Source: Devosia sp. ZB163
Lineage (GTDB): Bacteria > Pseudomonadota > Alphaproteobacteria > Rhizobiales > Devosiaceae
Length of the DNA: 64,000 bases
Direction: 5' to 3'
NCBI RefSeq assembly: GCF_028613635.1
Contig: NZ_JAQRMY010000003.1
Location: forward strand, 446,787-510,786
In this document: positions 1 through 15,783 of the stretch, in pieces
Position numbering within the stretch: the first letter of the stretch is position 1
Layout: each line of letters begins with the position of its first letter
Program-made: the position numbers and the translations under genes
Notes under the pieces: model-generated
Told to the model about the DNA's origin: nothing
What the model saw: only the letters and a program-made list of their open reading frames with translations
The model's database searches: none

Positions 1-3000
1 ATCGTCACCGGCGAGGTGACCCCGGTCACGGTTGCAGCCAAGTATCTCTATGGCGCGACGGCGCCGGATCTTGCGATCGAGGCCGACGCAGTGCTGCGTC
101 CGGTGAGCTCGCTGCCGGGCTTTGCGGGCTATACGTTCGGCCGGCTCGATGATCCGTTCCAGACGTCGCGTGAGCCGCTGGGCGTGGTCGGTACGACCGA
201 TGCGGACGGCAATGCCACTGCCGAAGTGGTGGTGAGCGAGCCGCAGGCGACGACCAAGCCGCTCGAGGCCCAGCTCATCATGCGGCTGGTCGACTCCAAT
301 GGCCGCGCCGTCGAGCGCAGCCTCAGCCGACCGGTGCTGGCGACGACCGATCGTATCGGCGTCAAGCCGCGCTTCGAGTCGGCGGACGGGCTGACCGAGG
401 GCAGCCAGGCGGTCTTTGACGTGATCGCGGTGGCGCCTGACGGCGCCCAGATCGACAAGGCCGGGCTCGAGTGGAGCCTGTCGCGCGTCGAGACCAACTA
501 CCAGTGGTATCGCAACAGCGGCGTGTGGAAGTGGGAAGCCATCACCACGACGCGCGAGGTGGCGAACGGGACGGTGGACACGACCGCTTCCGGGCCCGCG
601 GCCATCTCCGCGGCTGTCGACTGGGGTCTCTACCGGCTCGAAGTGTCGAGCACGGGCGAGGGCGCCACGTCGACGAGCTACGAGTTCTATGCGGGCTACT
701 ACTACCCGCAGGTGGGTTCGGACACGCCGGATACGCTGTCGGTTGCGCTCGACAAGCCGGCCTATCGCTCGGGCGAGACGGCGGTGCTGAAACTCGATCC
801 GCAGTTTGCGGGCACTGCGCTGGTGATGGTGGTCGACGACCGCATCATCGACATGAAGGCGGTCGAAGTGCCGGAGGGCGGGGCCTCGGTCGAGCTGCCG
901 GTCACCGATGACTGGGGGCCGGGCGCCTATGTGACGGCCATGCTCTACCGGCCGGCGAGCGCTGAAGCCAAGCGCATGCCGGCGCGGGCGCTCGGTGTCG
1001 CCTTTGCCGATGTGGATCCGGGTGACCTCAAGCTCGACATGGCGCTCGAGGCCCCTGAGACGGCATTGCCGCGGCAGGCCTTCAGCACCACGGTGAAGCT
1101 GGCCAACGTGCAGCCGGGCGACAAGGCCTATGTGGCCGTCGCGGCGGTGGACCTCGGCATCCTCAACCTCACCAAGTTCCAGGTGCCGGATCCCGACGGC
1201 TACTTCTTCGGCCAGCGCCAGCTCGGCATGGAGTTCCGCGACCTCTACGGCCAGTTGATCGATCCGATGCAGGGCACGCCCGGCGCGTTGCGCGTCGGTG
1301 GTGACGAAGGCGCGTCGCGCCTCGGCACGCCGCCGGCGACGACCGTACTGGTGGCGCTCCATTCGGGCATCGTGGAAGTTGGTCCGGACGGCACGGCCAC
1401 AGTCAGCTTCGACATGCCGGACTTCAACGGCACCGTCCGGCTGATGGCCATGGCCTGGTCGGCGAAGGCCGTCGGCCATGCTTCGGCCGACGTTGTCGTC
1501 CGTGATCCGGTGGTGGTGAACCTGAGCCCGCCGCGGTTCCTCCGCTATGGGGATACGTCGCGGCTGCTCGTCGAGGTGACCAATATCGCCGGCCAACCGG
1601 GCACCTATACGGTGTCGCTCGATACCGGGGAGGGGCTCTCGACGGATGCGCTTGAGAGCACGATCGAGCTTGGCGTCGGCGACAGGGCGGGGCTCGACCT
1701 CAAGCTCACCGGCACGGGGATCGGCGACAACAAGCTCACCGTGACCGTGCGGGCGCCGAACGGCGATGCGCAGGTGAAGGAACTGACGCTCGGCGTCCGC
1801 GCGGCAAGTGCCCCGCAGACGACGAGCCAGCTGATCCCGCTCGCCGTGGGCGAGACAGTGACGCTCGACGGCAGCCTGTTCGACGGCATGGTGCCGCACA
1901 CAGGCGAAGTAACGCTGGCGCTGGGCCCGATCGCACGTCTCGACGTGCCGGGCATCCTGCTGGCGCTCGACCGTTACCCCTATGGCTGTGCCGAGCAGAT
2001 TTCGAGCCGGGCACTGCCACTACTCTATCTCAACGAGGTCGCCTCGATGGTGGGGATCGGCACCGATGCCGAACTCGACCAGCGCATCCGCGATGCCATC
2101 AGGAACCTGCTCAGCAAGCAGACGTCGAGTGGCGGCTTCGGGCTGTGGGATCCGTATTCGACGACCGACCTGTGGCTCGACTCCTATGTCAGCGAGTTCC
2201 TGATCCGCGCCAAGGCGGCCGGGTACGAGGTGCCGGAGCTGGCGATGTCGCGGGCGCTGGACAACCTGAGCAACCAGGTGTCCTACGCGGCCGACTTCTC
2301 GCTGGGCGGCGAGGACGTGGCGTTCGCGCTCTACGATCTCGCCCGGGCCGGCCGGGCCGCCATCGGCGACCTGCGCTACTATCTCGAGGCACGGCTGAAC
2401 AACTTCGGCTCGCCGCTGGCCAAGGCCCAGCTAGGTGCGGCGCTCGCCCTCTATGGCGACCGGACGCGCGCGGCGACCGCCTTTGCGGCGGCGGTCGAGG
2501 GCCTCGGCGTGGCCGAGGAGCGCTACAAGTACCGTGGCGACTACGGCAGCCTGCTGCGTGATACGGCCGGCGTGCTGGCGCTTGCGGCGGAGTTCAAGCC
2601 GTCGGGCGTGGACATCGCGGAGCTGACGACCAAGCTCGCCAATATGCGTGATCGCGAGCGTTGGACGTCGACCCAGGAAGACGCCTGGACGCTGGTTGCC
2701 GCTTCGGCACTCGGCCAGTCGGCCGCAGATGGGTCCCTCGCCATCGACGGCGAGGCGCTGACCGGTTCGCCGTACCGCCGGTATGACCAGGAGCATTTCG
2801 ACGGGCTGACCGTCGAGGTGACCAACAACGGCAACCAGCCGACCGACATGAAGGTGACCACCACGGCCATCCCGGCCGAACCGCCGACGCCGAGCGAGAA
2901 CGGCTTCACGCTCACGCGGGACTACTACACCGTGACCGGCGAGCCGGCCGACTTCTCGGCGGTGCGCCAGAACGACCGGTTCGTGGTGGTGCTGACGGCG

Positions 3001-3339
3001 CAGCCGACGCGGCTGGGTTCGGGCCAGTACGTGATCGCCGATCCGCTGCCGGCCGGGTTCGAGATCGAGAACCCCAACCTGCTGCAGGGTTCGGGGGTTG
3101 CCGATCTCAGCTGGCTGACGGTGGACCAGCCGACGCACGTGGAGTCGCGGACCGACCAGTTCGTCGCGGCCTATCGGTTCACGTCGGATATCTCGAGCGT
3201 CACCGCGGCCTACCTGGTCCGCGCCGTGTCGCCGGGGACGTTCGTGATGCCGGGAGCGACGGTCGAGGACATGTATCGTCCTGATCTGCGCGCCAACACC
3301 AGTGCGGGCTCGATCGAGATCGGCCCGACCGGGCCGTGA
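1..3339 (+). CDS. Alpha-2-macroglobulin family protein, C-terminal part (5' end outside window)
   Basis: The frame is open from the first base, so this is the C-terminal ~1,112 residues of a larger protein. It carries a thioester site with Cys at 1987-1989 and Gln at 1996-1998 (C-A-E-Q), inside the typical tyrosine/proline-rich context that opens the alpha-helical TED domain; repeated helical pairs follow to about 2700 and a beta-rich receptor-binding-like domain ends the protein. Upstream are beta-sandwich MG domains. Bacterial members are periplasmic or lipoprotein protease traps thought to guard the cell wall. It overlaps the penicillin-binding protein 1C gene by 4 bp (GTGA), the conserved yfhM-pbpC pairing, which supports both calls. 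Family assignment is firm; target proteases are unknown. Confidence 0.93.
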   Translation: MVTGEVTPVTVAAKYLYGATAPDLAIEADAVLRPVSSLPGFAGYTFGRLDDPFQTSREPLGVVGTTDADGNATAEVVVSEPQATTKPLEAQLIMRLVDSNGRAVERSLSRPVLATTDRIGVKPRFESADGLTEGSQAVFDVIAVAPDGAQIDKAGLEWSLSRVETNYQWYRNSGVWKWEAITTTREVANGTVDTTASGPAAISAAVDWGLYRLEVSSTGEGATSTSYEFYAGYYYPQVGSDTPDTLSVALDKPAYRSGETAVLKLDPQFAGTALVMVVDDRIIDMKAVEVPEGGASVELPVTDDWGPGAYVTAMLYRPASAEAKRMPARALGVAFADVDPGDLKLDMALEAPETALPRQAFSTTVKLANVQPGDKAYVAVAAVDLGILNLTKFQVPDPDGYFFGQRQLGMEFRDLYGQLIDPMQGTPGALRVGGDEGASRLGTPPATTVLVALHSGIVEVGPDGTATVSFDMPDFNGTVRLMAMAWSAKAVGHASADVVVRDPVVVNLSPPRFLRYGDTSRLLVEVTNIAGQPGTYTVSLDTGEGLSTDALESTIELGVGDRAGLDLKLTGTGIGDNKLTVTVRAPNGDAQVKELTLGVRAASAPQTTSQLIPLAVGETVTLDGSLFDGMVPHTGEVTLALGPIARLDVPGILLALDRYPYGCAEQISSRALPLLYLNEVASMVGIGTDAELDQRIRDAIRNLLSKQTSSGGFGLWDPYSTTDLWLDSYVSEFLIRAKAAGYEVPELAMSRALDNLSNQVSYAADFSLGGEDVAFALYDLARAGRAAIGDLRYYLEARLNNFGSPLAKAQLGAALALYGDRTRAATAFAAAVEGLGVAEERYKYRGDYGSLLRDTAGVLALAAEFKPSGVDIAELTTKLANMRDRERWTSTQEDAWTLVAASALGQSAADGSLAIDGEALTGSPYRRYDQEHFDGLTVEVTNNGNQPTDMKVTTTAIPAEPPTPSENGFTLTRDYYTVTGEPADFSAVRQNDRFVVVLTAQPTRLGSGQYVIADPLPAGFEIENPNLLQGSGVADLSWLTVDQPTHVESRTDQFVAAYRFTSDISSVTAAYLVRAVSPGTFVMPGATVEDMYRPDLRANTSAGSIEIGPTGP

Positions 3340-7918: not shown

Positions 7919-9463
<1,545 letters not shown>

Positions 9464-9541: not shown

Positions 9542-10513
9542 ATGGAACGTGACGACAATACCCACACGGCAATGGCGACCACGCCGCTTGCTTCGTGGAA
9601 CGAAGGCCCAGCCAAGCAGGCGATCATGGATTTCGTCGAGCGCGTGACGGTGCCGATCAGCCCCGATTTCGTGCCGGTAGCCCAGAGGATTGCGACCTTC
9701 GACAATGACGGAACTCTGTGGTGCGAGCAGCCGATGCAGGTGCAACTGTACTTTGCCGGTGAGCGCCTCGATCAACTGGCGAAGAGAGATCCGTCGCTAA
9801 GGGATCGCGAGCCGTTCAAGTCGTACCTGGCCCGGGACATCGAGAGCATGAAGCGTTTCGGCAAGCGTGGCCTGCTCGAGGTTGGCCTCGCGGCGCATGC
9901 CGGCGATACAGAGGAAGAGTTCGAGGTTGAGGCGCGCGCCTGGCTGGACCGGGCGCGGCACCCGAAGCTCGGGGTGCTGTTCAAGGAACTGACCTACCAG
10001 CCGCAGCGTGAGCTACTCGACTATCTCAAGGCACATGGATTCAAGAACTTCATCGTGACCGGCGGCGGGATCGATGTGGTAAGGGCGCTGGCCGAGGACG
10101 CCTATGGCATCCCGCCGGAGCAGGTCGTGGGATCGAGCAACAAGACGAGCTTCGAGATCCGCGACGGCAAGGCGGTGGTGGTCAAGCAGGCCGAGCTCGG
10201 CAGCTTCGATGACCGCGAGGTGAAGCCGCAGAACATTGCGCTCCACATCGGGCGGCGGCCGATCCTCGCCTTCGGCAACTCGGACGGCGACCTCGCCATG
10301 CTGCGCTACACGCTGACCGGCGGCGGGCCGCGTCTCGGGCTGCTGCTGCATCACGACGATGACGAGCGCGAGTTCGCATACGATCGCGAGTTTCAGCTGA
10401 GCCCCCTGGTAGAGGCCCTCGACCATGCCGATGAGTACGGCATCACGGTCGTGAGCATGAAGAGCGACTGGCGGACGGTGTTTGGCGCCGACGTCAAGCA
10501 GGCCGCGGCATGA
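9542..10513 (+). CDS. HAD superfamily hydrolase (phosphoserine phosphatase-like)
   Basis: 323-residue haloacid dehalogenase-superfamily phosphohydrolase. Motif I is F-D-N-D-G-T with the nucleophile Asp54 and acid Asp56; motif II is V-T-G-G-G around residue 171; motif IV is G-N-S-D-G-D near residue 245. The insert between motifs I and II is helical, as in class C1/SerB-like members. No signal peptide. It sits between two kinds of sulfatase in one plus-strand run, suggesting it removes phosphate from, or otherwise processes, a product of the same pathway, but that is inference from position only. Confidence 0.82.
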   Translation: MERDDNTHTAMATTPLASWNEGPAKQAIMDFVERVTVPISPDFVPVAQRIATFDNDGTLWCEQPMQVQLYFAGERLDQLAKRDPSLRDREPFKSYLARDIESMKRFGKRGLLEVGLAAHAGDTEEEFEVEARAWLDRARHPKLGVLFKELTYQPQRELLDYLKAHGFKNFIVTGGGIDVVRALAEDAYGIPPEQVVGSSNKTSFEIRDGKAVVVKQAELGSFDDREVKPQNIALHIGRRPILAFGNSDGDLAMLRYTLTGGGPRLGLLLHHDDDEREFAYDREFQLSPLVEALDHADEYGITVVSMKSDWRTVFGADVKQAAA

Positions 10514-13144: not shown

Positions 13145-14041
13145 ATGACCGTAGCGCAAATGCTGCTGATCGTCCTCAACGTGAGCATCGCAATCGTCGT
13201 CCTCGGCCTGGGGCTGGGGGCGAGCCTCAACGATGCCGCCTACCTGGTCCGTCGTCCCGGGGCGCTGCTGCGGTCGGTGTTCTCGATGCATATCGTAATG
13301 CCGGTGGTCGCGGTCGTGCTGGTGATCGCGTTCGGTATGCGGGGGCCGATCGGTGTTGCACTGCTGGCGCTCTCGCTGTCGCCGATGCCGCCCTTCCTGC
13401 CGCTGACCCAGACCAGGGGAGGGGGAACCCATGCCTATGCCATCTCGCTGCTCGTGATCACGGCACTCCTCGCCGTCGCCGTGGTCCCGCTGGGTCTCAT
13501 GGCCATCAGCGTGGTCGCCGGCGCCAAGGCCGATGCTCCCGAGATCGCCGGAACGCTGGCGCTCACCGTGACACTGCCACTCGTCACCGGCATGGTCGTG
13601 CACGACCTCTATCCCGGTCTCGCGCGGCGCCTGGTGAAGCCGATATCGACGCTCGGCCTCGTGCTGCTCGTCCTCGCGTTCATCCCTGTCGCTGCATTCG
13701 AGTGGGGCAGGATGTGGTCGATGGTCGGGAACGGGGTGCTCGGGGCGCTCGTGATCTTTGCCCTCGTGGGGATTGTGGTGGGCCATTTCCTGGGAGGGCC
13801 GACCTCCGCTGACAGGCTCGTCCTCGCCACGGCCACCGCCGCCCGGCATCCGGGCATCGCAATCGCCGTGGCCGCGGCGAACTCCGAACAGGTGACGCTG
13901 GTTGCCGCGGTGGTCATCTGGCATCTGCTTGTGGGGGCGGTAATGGCCATGCCGTACACGCGGTGGATGCACCTGCTGCCGACGCCGGAACCTCAACAAA
14001 AAGCGGACAAAACCCCCCGGCATTTCCCGCCAATTAGATAA
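13145..14041 (+). CDS. Bile acid:sodium symporter (BASS)-like membrane transporter
   Basis: 298 residues with eight to nine hydrophobic segments. The C-terminal half contains A-T-A-A-R-H-P-G-I-A-I, closely matching the conserved R-N-P-G region of the BASS/NhaC-like fold. Family members move organic anions including bile acids, pantoate and sulfo-compounds with sodium. The start is 12 bp after the arylsulfatase stop and GGAGGG precedes ATG 13145, so the two are probably co-translated; an organic sulfate ester or its desulfated product is a plausible but unproven substrate. The C-terminal tail is basic and cytoplasmic. Confidence 0.72.
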   Translation: MTVAQMLLIVLNVSIAIVVLGLGLGASLNDAAYLVRRPGALLRSVFSMHIVMPVVAVVLVIAFGMRGPIGVALLALSLSPMPPFLPLTQTRGGGTHAYAISLLVITALLAVAVVPLGLMAISVVAGAKADAPEIAGTLALTVTLPLVTGMVVHDLYPGLARRLVKPISTLGLVLLVLAFIPVAAFEWGRMWSMVGNGVLGALVIFALVGIVVGHFLGGPTSADRLVLATATAARHPGIAIAVAAANSEQVTLVAAVVIWHLLVGAVMAMPYTRWMHLLPTPEPQQKADKTPRHFPPIR

Positions 14042-14098
14042 GACTGCGGGCTTCTGCCTTCATCAGAACGGAAGGCCGCTCTCCCGATACTGATAGCG

Positions 14099-14170
14099 CC
14101 TCACTCAAGCCGCTCGGCAGACTATCGGCCGGGCGGCCTTTCTAGCGGACTCGTTCCGCCTTGAGTGAGG
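14099..14170 (+). promoter_or_regulatory. Inverted repeat upstream of the DUF202 gene
   Basis: CCTCACTCAAG (14099-14109) and CTTGAGTGAGG (14160-14170) are perfect 11-bp inverted arms 50 bases apart, enclosing a second GC-rich palindrome (GGCCGGGCGGCC region). The right arm ends seven bases before ATG 14178 and includes the ribosome-binding purines, so folding would hide the start. Confidence 0.5.
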
Positions 14171-14177
14171 ACGGACG

Positions 14178-14807
14178 ATGGCCCTCCCCCTTCAGCAGCC
14201 GCCAGTGCGGCCCGAGCGCTTCAAGGCGCCGCCGCTGCCGGCGATGCCCGTGGTGGACCTCAGCAAGCCGGACGTAGCCTCAGTCGAATACTCCCAGCAC
14301 CGCACCGGCCTCAGCCGGCACCGCACGGAACTATCGGAACACCGCACGGACCTCTCGGAGTTCCGCACCGATCTTTCGGGCGAGCGCACCGAGATGTCGA
14401 TGCGGCGGACCGGCATGTCGTTCCAGCGCACACGGCTGAGCGCGGAGCGGACCCTGATGTCGGTGATCCGCACGTCCCTGTCGCTCATCAGCTTCGGCTT
14501 TACGATCTTCCAGTTGATCCGGGGACTGGCCCAGACGGGCACGATTGAAGTGGGCCAGCATGCGGCGCGGAACTTCGGCGTGACCCTGGTCGGACTCGGC
14601 ATCCTGCTTCTGATCGTCGGGATCATCTACCACATCCAGTTCATGCTCGGGCTGCGCTACGAGCGCGACGACATGCAGAGGGAAGGGCTGGTCTACGCCC
14701 AGAGCCACTTCCCCATCTCGTTCACATTGATCACGGCCTTCGTCCTGCTGGCGATCGGCGTTTCCGCCATTACCAGCATGGTCTTCCAGGTCGGCCCCTT
14801 CTTCTGA
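14178..14807 (+). CDS. DUF202 family membrane protein with nine R-T heptads
   Basis: 209 residues. The C-terminal part is a DUF202/YidH-like core: the family motif E-R-T-x-x-x-x-I-R-T-S-L at residues 90-101 and three membrane segments (about 101-115, 129-152, 178-200). What is unusual is that the heptad of the core motif is repeated: R-T pairs occur at residues 42, 49, 56, 63, 70, 77, 84, 91 and 98, exactly seven apart, each usually followed by x-[LM]-S. The N-terminus before it is proline-rich. DUF202 has no established biochemical function. It lies between the BASS-like transporter and the FGE gene, 16 bp before the latter, so it is very probably in the same operon. Confidence 0.85.
   Translation: MALPLQQPPVRPERFKAPPLPAMPVVDLSKPDVASVEYSQHRTGLSRHRTELSEHRTDLSEFRTDLSGERTEMSMRRTGMSFQRTRLSAERTLMSVIRTSLSLISFGFTIFQLIRGLAQTGTIEVGQHAARNFGVTLVGLGILLLIVGIIYHIQFMLGLRYERDDMQREGLVYAQSHFPISFTLITAFVLLAIGVSAITSMVFQVGPFF
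14298..14486 (+). repeat. Nine 21-bp coding repeats encoding the R-T-x-L-S heptad
   Basis: Nine consecutive 21-bp units inside the DUF202 gene, each encoding x-R-T-x-[LM]-S-x. Arg and Thr are invariant in all nine; the third-position and flanking residues vary, so the repeats are old enough to have diverged at DNA level while the protein pattern is kept. Confidence 0.9.
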
Positions 14808-14823
14808 GCAGGCGGGACAGATA

Positions 14824-15783
14824 ATGACATCGGCAGCAGCGAAGGAGCGCGTGAGATCCAAGGGCGCCCCTCCGACGGAGAGCCTGGTCTGGATCCCGGG
14901 CGGCACCTTCACCATGGGTTCCGACGTGCACTATCCCGAGGAGGCGCCGGCGCATCGGGTGACGGTCGACGGGTTCTGGATCGATCGGTACACGGTGACC
15001 AACCGCGAGTTCGAAGCGTTCGTCGCGGCAACGCGCTACGTGACGCTTGCCGAGCGGCCGGCCAATCCCGACGACTACCCGGGCGCGCTGCCGGAGTTGC
15101 TCGAGCCAGCGTCGACCGTATTCAGCCGGCCGCTCGGTCCGGTCGACATGCGCAACCACTACAACTGGTGGAGCTATGTGCGGGGCGCCAACTGGCGACA
15201 CCCGGGCGGGCCGCATACCAGCATAGACAGGCTGGCCGAGCATCCGGTGGTGCATGTGGCGCTCGAGGATGTCGAGGCCTATACGCGCTGGATCGGCAAG
15301 GAGCTGCCGACCGAAGCCGAATGGGAGTTCGCGGCGCGCGGCGGGCTCGACCATGCGGAATTCGTGTGGGGCGACGAGATGGCGCCCGACGGACGCCACA
15401 TGGCCAACACCTGGCAGGGGACGTTCCCCTATCTCAACACGGCCGAGGACGGGTTCGAAGGCACGGCGCCGGTCGGGAGCTATCCGGCCAACGGGTACGG
15501 GCTCTACGACATGGCCGGCAATGTCTGGCAGTGGACGCAGGACTGGTACACGCCGCAGCACATGCCGCACCTGGCCATCAATCCCCACGGGGGCACGCGC
15601 GAGGGCAGCTTCGATGGCCGACAGCCGGGTGTGCAGCTGCCGCGCCGGGTGACCAAGGGCGGCTCGCACCTGTGCGCCCCGAACTATTGCCGGCGGTACC
15701 GGCCGGCAGCACGGATGGCGCAGCCGGTCGACACGTCCACTTCGCACCTGGGTTTCCGTTGCGTGGTGCGGCCGGGCAGGTAA
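14824..15783 (+). CDS. Formylglycine-generating enzyme (sulfatase-modifying factor)
   Basis: 319-residue SUMF1/FGE-sulfatase family protein (PF03781). It oxidises the active-site cysteine of type I sulfatases to formylglycine, using molecular oxygen and copper. The N-terminal G-G-T-F-x-M-G signature is near residues 24-30. Both catalytic cysteines are visible in G-G-S-H-L-C-A-P-N-Y-C: Cys284 and Cys289, spaced as in characterised aerobic FGEs, followed by R-Y-R-P-A-A-R and the terminal L-G-F-R-C motif. This separates it from the many SUMF1-like proteins lacking the cysteines. No signal peptide, so it matures cytosolic sulfatases, consistent with the three leaderless sulfatases upstream. Sixteen bp after the DUF202 gene. 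Confidence 0.94.
   Translation: MTSAAAKERVRSKGAPPTESLVWIPGGTFTMGSDVHYPEEAPAHRVTVDGFWIDRYTVTNREFEAFVAATRYVTLAERPANPDDYPGALPELLEPASTVFSRPLGPVDMRNHYNWWSYVRGANWRHPGGPHTSIDRLAEHPVVHVALEDVEAYTRWIGKELPTEAEWEFAARGGLDHAEFVWGDEMAPDGRHMANTWQGTFPYLNTAEDGFEGTAPVGSYPANGYGLYDMAGNVWQWTQDWYTPQHMPHLAINPHGGTREGSFDGRQPGVQLPRRVTKGGSHLCAPNYCRRYRPAARMAQPVDTSTSHLGFRCVVRPGR

Follow-up and report, generated by a model that had tools for sequence, protein, structure and literature searches.

Long arginine-threonine heptad arms on DUF202 membrane proteins encoded beside sulfatases: a possible VTC-like anion channel

The function of DUF202, a widespread domain, is unknown, and the yeast VTC polyphosphate complex is the only member family with solved structures that was found here. 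According to PMC9911596, the VTC channel is formed by five TM1 helices, the basic residues of its wall include the pairs K24/R31, K698/R705 and K622/R629, each pair seven residues apart, and the cytoplasmic half of the channel is lined by basic residues that include K24 and R31. In the same paper, R31 and its counterparts are described as the narrowest ring, two phosphates are placed at the cytoplasmic entrance, alanine mutants of the channel basic residues are reported to lose vacuolar polyphosphate, polyphosphate synthesis in vitro is raised for the yeast Vtc1 K24A/R31A mutant, and Vtc1 itself consists of the TM domain only (PMC9911596). A second described system is that of E. coli YidG and YidH, which resemble the present case in that these DUF202 proteins are encoded near yidJ (a putative sulfatase or phosphatase) and the transporter gene yidK. 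E. coli YidF, which we take to be a sulfatase maturase, was assigned to no family in a Pfam scan. With E. coli yidH as a D-alanine exporter candidate, intracellular D-alanine was not lowered (PMC10299036), a result that is neutral for the channel reading given below.

The DUF202 gene of the present study is carried by Devosia sp. ZB163 on a stretch of 64,000 nucleotides, which is referred to as the window (Table 1). The window protein is like Vtc1 in its detectable homology (E about 1e-6), its three TM helices and the spacing of TM1 basic residues seven apart. Where Vtc1 has one ERT motif plus K24, nine R-T units are present in the window protein, on a helical arm that, at about 10.5 angstrom per heptad, would be roughly 95 angstrom long, and its gene neighbours, unlike those of Vtc1, are sulfatases. 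E. coli YidH also differs from the window protein, with two R-T units and no long arm, and the annotated neighbours at the yid locus, unlike those in the window, include no FGE. Upstream of the SBF, DUF202 and FGE genes of the window were three sulfatase genes and a HAD hydrolase gene. These sulfatases start shortly before their first metal-site motif and lack a hydrophobic leader, and therefore look cytoplasmic. The genome also carries another DUF202 gene, which is shorter and encodes four heptad-spaced Arg; it adjoins sulfatase and DUF1622 genes.

Table 1. Features of the DUF202 locus, in window coordinates
Feature	Position	Strand	Remarks
Sulfatase (PF00884), 503 aa	6314..7825	+	Pfam; without signal peptide
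Sulfatase (PF00884), start MAKTDKPNILVIWGDD	7919..9463	+	Pfam; no space for signal peptide
HAD-type hydrolase (PF12710)	9542..10513	+	Pfam
Sulfatase (PF00884), 773 aa	10812..13133	+	Pfam; without signal peptide
SBF transporter (sodium/bile acid symporter family, PF01758)	13145..14041	+	Pfam; directly upstream of DUF202 gene
DUF202 membrane protein, CDS, 209 aa	14178..14807	+	Pro-rich N-terminus, Arg-Thr heptad arm, three TM helices
R-T heptads (n = 9), R-T-x-[LM]-S-x-x	14301..14474	+	Residues 42-99; helix 34-119 predicted
Pfam DUF202 match	14427..14639	+	Residues 84-154; R91 aligned with Vtc1 R31
FGE-type sulfatase-modifying factor (PF03781)	14824..15783	+	Pfam; directly downstream of DUF202 gene; by eye without signal peptide

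The original prediction, made from the DNA alone, that a DUF202 protein in this stretch contains nine R-T heptads was confirmed. Thus, R-T pairs began at residues 42, 49, 56, 63, 70, 77, 84, 91 and 98 of the protein, and all nine units fitted the pattern R-T-x-[LM]-S; the units are real, although the start given for them (14298) was one codon off the first base of the array. Pfam assigned the protein to DUF202 (PF02656) with an E value of 3e-13 and a score of 50.4 bits (cut-off 23.4), and hydrophobic segments were found at residues 92-118, 128-161 and 174-209, with three helices predicted. R91-T92 and R98-T99 form the ERT...RT core with which TM1 begins. The Pfam match covers the last units of the array, which bears out the claim that these represent the family core, and the further claim that the array is an outward extension of that core was also supported.

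Neither chance nor fresh duplication of DNA accounts for the array. Among 20,000 shuffles of residues 38-102, an RT-heptad run of three arose in seven shuffles and a run of four or more in none, and shuffling the whole protein 20,000 times gave no run greater than two. Similarly, a DNA pattern of five units gave five overlapping matches in the window, all of them at the array, and none in 100 shuffles. Recent tandem duplication was ruled out by the DNA of the units, which had a mean identity between units of 0.55 and in which TRF detected just 2.0 copies. These findings indicate that the array is real, non-chance and not recent.

Conservation of the units was evident from 26 distinct arrays with a total of 252 units, in which Arg was kept in 252, Thr in 251, Leu or Met in 251 and Ser in 244. 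The other heptad positions were highly variable, and in the long arms they were often D, E or H. Since Arg in these arrays was encoded by five codons and Ser by both TCN and AGY codons, it is the protein that is under selection. Divergence of the units in DNA, with R, T, L/M and S kept, marks the array as old.

A profile of 13 DUF202 rows, the window protein included, matched Vtc1 structures in the PDB (9umg, 8i6v and 7ytj) with E values from 1.5e-6 to 4e-6 and matched Vtc4 weakly (E 0.38); the window protein alone gave chance matches only (best E 0.61). In this comparison Vtc1 R31 aligned with the Arg of the ERT motif, which is R91 of the window protein, while K24, a residue outside the aligned segment, corresponds to R84 by counting back seven. 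With R31 aligned to R91, the array continues the basic ladder of the VTC channel in register, R42 to R77 extending it outward. Both the homology and the register with Vtc1 are well supported by these sequence comparisons. The window protein was not filed as a VTC protein because Pfam gave DUF202 only, with no SPX or TTM (polyphosphate polymerase) domain.

An AlphaFold2 model of the window protein monomer, built with four sequences, predicted an unbroken helix through the array and TM1, with a mean pLDDT of 72.9 that was lowest in the outer arm (approximately 47-70 over residues 31-80). A single helix, from residue 56 to residue 157, was likewise predicted for a Lysobacter protein with 12 heptads (mean pLDDT 70.6). 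Foldseek found no match to the monomer model in the PDB at E <= 0.001, the best VTC row being 9umg chain D (E 1.6), and no fold is therefore claimed from this search.

An exact seven-residue period drifts by approximately 20 degrees per heptad on a straight helix. The arrays had this exact period over 9-14 units, and Leu or Met occupied d in 251 of 252 units; of the two core positions of the heptad, only this one is hydrophobic. Such a register would be kept best in a left-handed coiled coil, which supports the earlier suggestion that the period points to a long coiled coil. A helix that lay flat on the membrane, its Arg residues snorkelling to lipid phosphates, would account for the presence of R, S, T and L/M all on one face. 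However, the arm is predicted to be continuous with TM1 and, over as many as 14 units, the exact register would drift on a straight helix, and we consider this surface arrangement very unlikely. The binding of an anionic partner, also proposed at the outset, acquired a concrete basis from the alignment of an R-T Arg with a pore-lining Arg of Vtc1; given this homology, the version of that proposal with a ladder at the lipid surface seems less likely than a ladder leading to a pore.

Matches to the window protein were found in 2 of 19 genomes of its genus and 2 of 136 genomes of its family. DUF202 was present in 22 of 385 genomes of the class with a total of 26 matches, among which the strict R-T run was two in eleven, four in six, three in three, one in three, and zero, five and nine in one each, the sole run of nine being that of the window protein itself. 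Searches with a subfamily alignment gave matches in 15 of 299 genomes of the phylum and in 43 of 297 genomes of the family of genome G594. This family contains Lysobacter, since a search within the genus of the Lysobacter locus gave those places again; it was taken as Xanthomonadaceae and belongs to the same phylum as the window but to another class. No relatives were found in viral contigs (10 pattern matches only). The DNA pattern of five units occurred in at least 118 stretches of genome contigs and at least 120 of viral contigs, but those among the matches listed were mostly unrelated low-complexity frames, and no frequency was drawn from them. Loci L030, L084, L088, L078 and L105 were picked up through this pattern. 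The last two (L078:4001-6833 and L105:2760-5553) encode deltaproteobacterial proteins, each containing two or three DUF202-like blocks with several R-T heptads per block.

Array length was scored over 108 DUF202 genes, with R followed by T, S or N counted as a unit. At least nine heptads were present in 29 of these genes, the long arrays having 9, 10, 12 or 14, and none of the 108 had from six to eight. The distribution was thus bimodal, with either 2-5 or 9-14 heptads, and the four-heptad form corresponded to the last four units of the long form. Homologues differed by whole heptads, as insertions of 7 or 21 residues; the Lysobacter and window arrays were exactly 21 residues apart, while those of genome G002 and Neorhizobium were seven residues longer than that of the window protein. 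One R-S interrupted the R-T run of the long array at locus L378. In a tree of the core domain, which was based on few columns and left many forks unresolved, long and four-heptad forms were interspersed, with nine label changes, at least four of them forced by starred branches. Arms therefore appear to have been gained and lost repeatedly within the subfamily. The same interspersion would be expected if arrays simply grew and shrank by slippage with no function of their own, but such drift is hard to reconcile with divergence of the codons and other positions around a constant R, T, L/M and S, or with the lack of lengths from six to eight, and is in our judgement highly improbable.

The linkage of long arrays to sulfatase genes was evident from a scan of loci of up to 20 kb with purpose-built HMMs, in which neighbours within 5 kb were counted. 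These loci were chosen by sequence similarity rather than by neighbours and are related, so that the counts do not represent independent events. A sulfatase gene was found within 5 kb of 26 of the 29 genes with at least nine heptads, on the same strand in 24, and the same distance included a maturase gene for 23, DUF1622 for 20 and SBF for 3. One of the 26, at L397:9375-10163, was a sulfatase remnant right after a nine-heptad DUF202 gene. For the long-array gene of G594 (L348), the nearest sulfatase by PF00884 was approximately 6 kb off. Two nine-heptad genes of Phenylobacterium (L084 and L088) had no sulfatase within their 8-kb loci; their genomes gave 10 and 7 sulfatase matches, the nearest of which was 139 kb away in one genome, with none on the contig of the other.

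In contrast with these results, no sulfatase was found within 5 kb of any of 22 ordinary DUF202 genes from 21 loci of the class (loci L323 and L324, which had no DUF202 by HMM, were left out), nor in any of 20 control regions, each taken from the beginning of contig C1 in one of 20 genomes (four were under 10 kb). A PF00884 search of the class genomes found no sulfatase within 20 kb of DUF202 genes, several of which were on short contigs; the nearest was approximately 49 kb away. The ordinary proteins had the same TM domain as the window protein and 3-5 strict heptads in 10 of 22, but never more than five. Thus, the original prediction that the long array is tied to sulfatase and FGE genes was supported well beyond the window (26 of 29 compared with 0 of 22), and the objection it raised against itself, that repeated heptads might be a common DUF202 trait in unrelated neighbourhoods, was rejected for arrays of at least nine and accepted for those of 3-5. 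Since the shorter arrays are common in unrelated neighbourhoods, repeated R-T heptads alone are no marker of sulfatase operons.

Among Xanthomonadaceae loci chosen for a long-array match, a sulfatase was present in 22 of 22 (one a remnant), FGE in 21 and DUF1622 in 19, and the usual gene order was DUF202-sulfatase-FGE-DUF1622. Comparators from this family, with 2-5 heptads, were often linked as well; a sulfatase was within 5 kb of 7 of 23 genes at four-heptad loci and 13 of 19 genes of more distant relatives. These comparators indicate that linkage to sulfatases is not exclusive to long arrays; it is a property of the subfamily and is closest where the array is long.

The linkage of long-array DUF202 genes to sulfatase and maturase genes was thus conserved outside the window genome, and related arrangements were seen in other lineages. 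In Neorhizobium petrolearium, an array of ten heptads (one of them R-S) was followed by two arylsulfatases and DUF1622, and in Phyllobacterium a four-heptad form was accompanied by sulfatase, SBF, FGE and DUF1622. In Paraburkholderia, adjacent DUF202 and SBF genes had as neighbours an arylsulfatase and a maturase of the unrelated, anaerobic type (anSME). No sulfatase was seen at the loci of four-heptad forms from Microvirga (L253) and genome G543 (L351). A fusion protein of Leptolyngbya sp. BL0902 (L255:8028-9470) resembled the window protein in its R-T array, of ten heptads and located ahead of DUF202, and in its nearby sulfatase, FGE and DUF1622 genes, accompanied here by an MFS transporter gene, but differed in its fused SBF domain, in units of R-T-x-L-A rather than R-T-x-L-S and in its distant position in the tree. 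Three further DUF202 genes lie beside this gene, as do those for DUF1622, FGE and an arylsulfatase. DUF1622 (PF07784), a small protein of unknown function, recurred in the sulfatase operons at L325, L322, L252, L254, L255 and L378-L399. Genes for DUF2950 recurred at L252, L254 and L374, together with DUF3300 in two of these three.

Across these wider operons sulfatase and DUF202 were constant but their partners changed: the importer was SBF in the window, YidK in E. coli and an MFS transporter in Leptolyngbya, and the maturase was FGE or, in Paraburkholderia, anSME. This pattern suggests that DUF202 is to be assigned to sulfate, the product that the operons share, and not to the substrate. The SBF gene is adjacent to or fused with DUF202 in several lineages, as would be expected if DUF202 were an accessory or regulatory subunit of an SBF-type importer of sulfated organic anions, with the Arg arm capturing substrate or gating the carrier. 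However, SBF was within 5 kb of only 3 of 29 long-array genes and present at all in only 1 of 22 Xanthomonadaceae long-array loci, and such a role is unlikely.

The usual proximity of long-armed DUF202 genes to sulfatase genes suggests that the proteins handle sulfate released by the neighbouring sulfatases. Our preferred reading, to which we assign a probability of roughly 0.4, is that the protein forms an oligomeric anion channel like that of VTC, with a long Arg coiled-coil arm on the cytoplasmic side, through which sulfate made by cytoplasmic sulfatases is released; the oligomer, the coiled coil, the cargo and the direction of transport are elements that we infer. As in yeast VTC, an oligomeric pore would be lined by TM1, which the nine R-T heptads would carry on into the cytoplasm as a single long helix. 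Helices of several subunits could then wind into a left-handed coiled coil with Arg at a, Leu or Met at d and Thr and Ser beside them, and this coiled coil would hold rings of Arg in a single line above the pore. The resulting ladder may collect an oxyanion on the cytoplasmic side and guide it to the pore. In sulfatase operons this anion would most likely be sulfate from cytoplasmic FGE-matured sulfatases, so that sulfatase catalysis would be coupled to product discharge much as polyphosphate synthesis is to export in VTC. The most specific version, an enzyme-coupled sulfate export channel in which a multi-helix Arg-ring stalk of approximately 95-145 angstrom extends into the cytoplasm and takes sulfate directly from the sulfatases of the operon to a VTC-type pore, is put forward as doubtful.

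Several findings count against a channel, among them the low to moderate confidence of the model over the array, the lack of a Foldseek match at the threshold used and the raised synthesis in vitro of the yeast Vtc1 K24A/R31A mutant. The outer half of the arm (residues 42-69) has a net charge of -1 compared with +5 for the inner half, and a ladder would therefore need Arg inside and acids outside. In addition, the two Phenylobacterium genes are without a nearby sulfatase, and the sulfatase and FGE of Leptolyngbya have apparently export-type hydrophobic N-termini, whereas the N-termini of the proteobacterial operon sulfatases examined were without a hydrophobic segment; judged from its sequence, the Leptolyngbya sulfatase may not be cytoplasmic. 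The chief rival to the channel is a docking stalk, in which a membrane-anchored coiled coil would serve as scaffold for cytoplasmic sulfatase and/or FGE (or SBF), with arm length setting reach and Arg, Thr and Ser providing packing or contacts rather than an ion path. Such a stalk would fit the operon linkage with sulfatase and FGE, the DUF202-SBF fusion of Leptolyngbya, the adjacency of the two genes in the window, G002 and Paraburkholderia, the near-neutral outer arm rich in D, E and H, and the variation of arm length from 9 to 14 units with register kept. On the other hand, packing does not require Arg at 252 of 252 units and the same Arg lines the pore of Vtc1. We regard the stalk as somewhat unlikely and favor the channel.

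A literature search, outside which most subscription papers lie, found no description of an R-T array or of a link between DUF202 and sulfatases, and no description of the array was found in the available portions of papers that mention DUF202, including PMC4400040 and PMC5767969. The long arm, its length steps of whole heptads and the sulfatase linkage lead to a testable role for DUF202, namely enzyme-coupled channelling of anions. Such a role, if true, would give bacterial DUF202 a function, would explain the disposal of sulfate in bacteria with cytoplasmic sulfatases, and would make VTC-type discharge of an anionic product an old principle that extends beyond polyphosphate. It would also provide a natural, length-variable coiled coil of Arg rings for study and design.

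Two other features of the window were noted. The gap between the SBF and DUF202 genes (14042-14177) contains a strong predicted hairpin (-64.5 kcal/mol, z -4.07) with arms CCTCACTCAAG and CTTGAGTGAGG, extending near the DUF202 start codon; in the matching gap of a sister genome the hairpin was not significant (z -0.24). Upstream of the sulfatase cassette, positions 16-3339 encode a bacterial alpha-2-macroglobulin-type protein.
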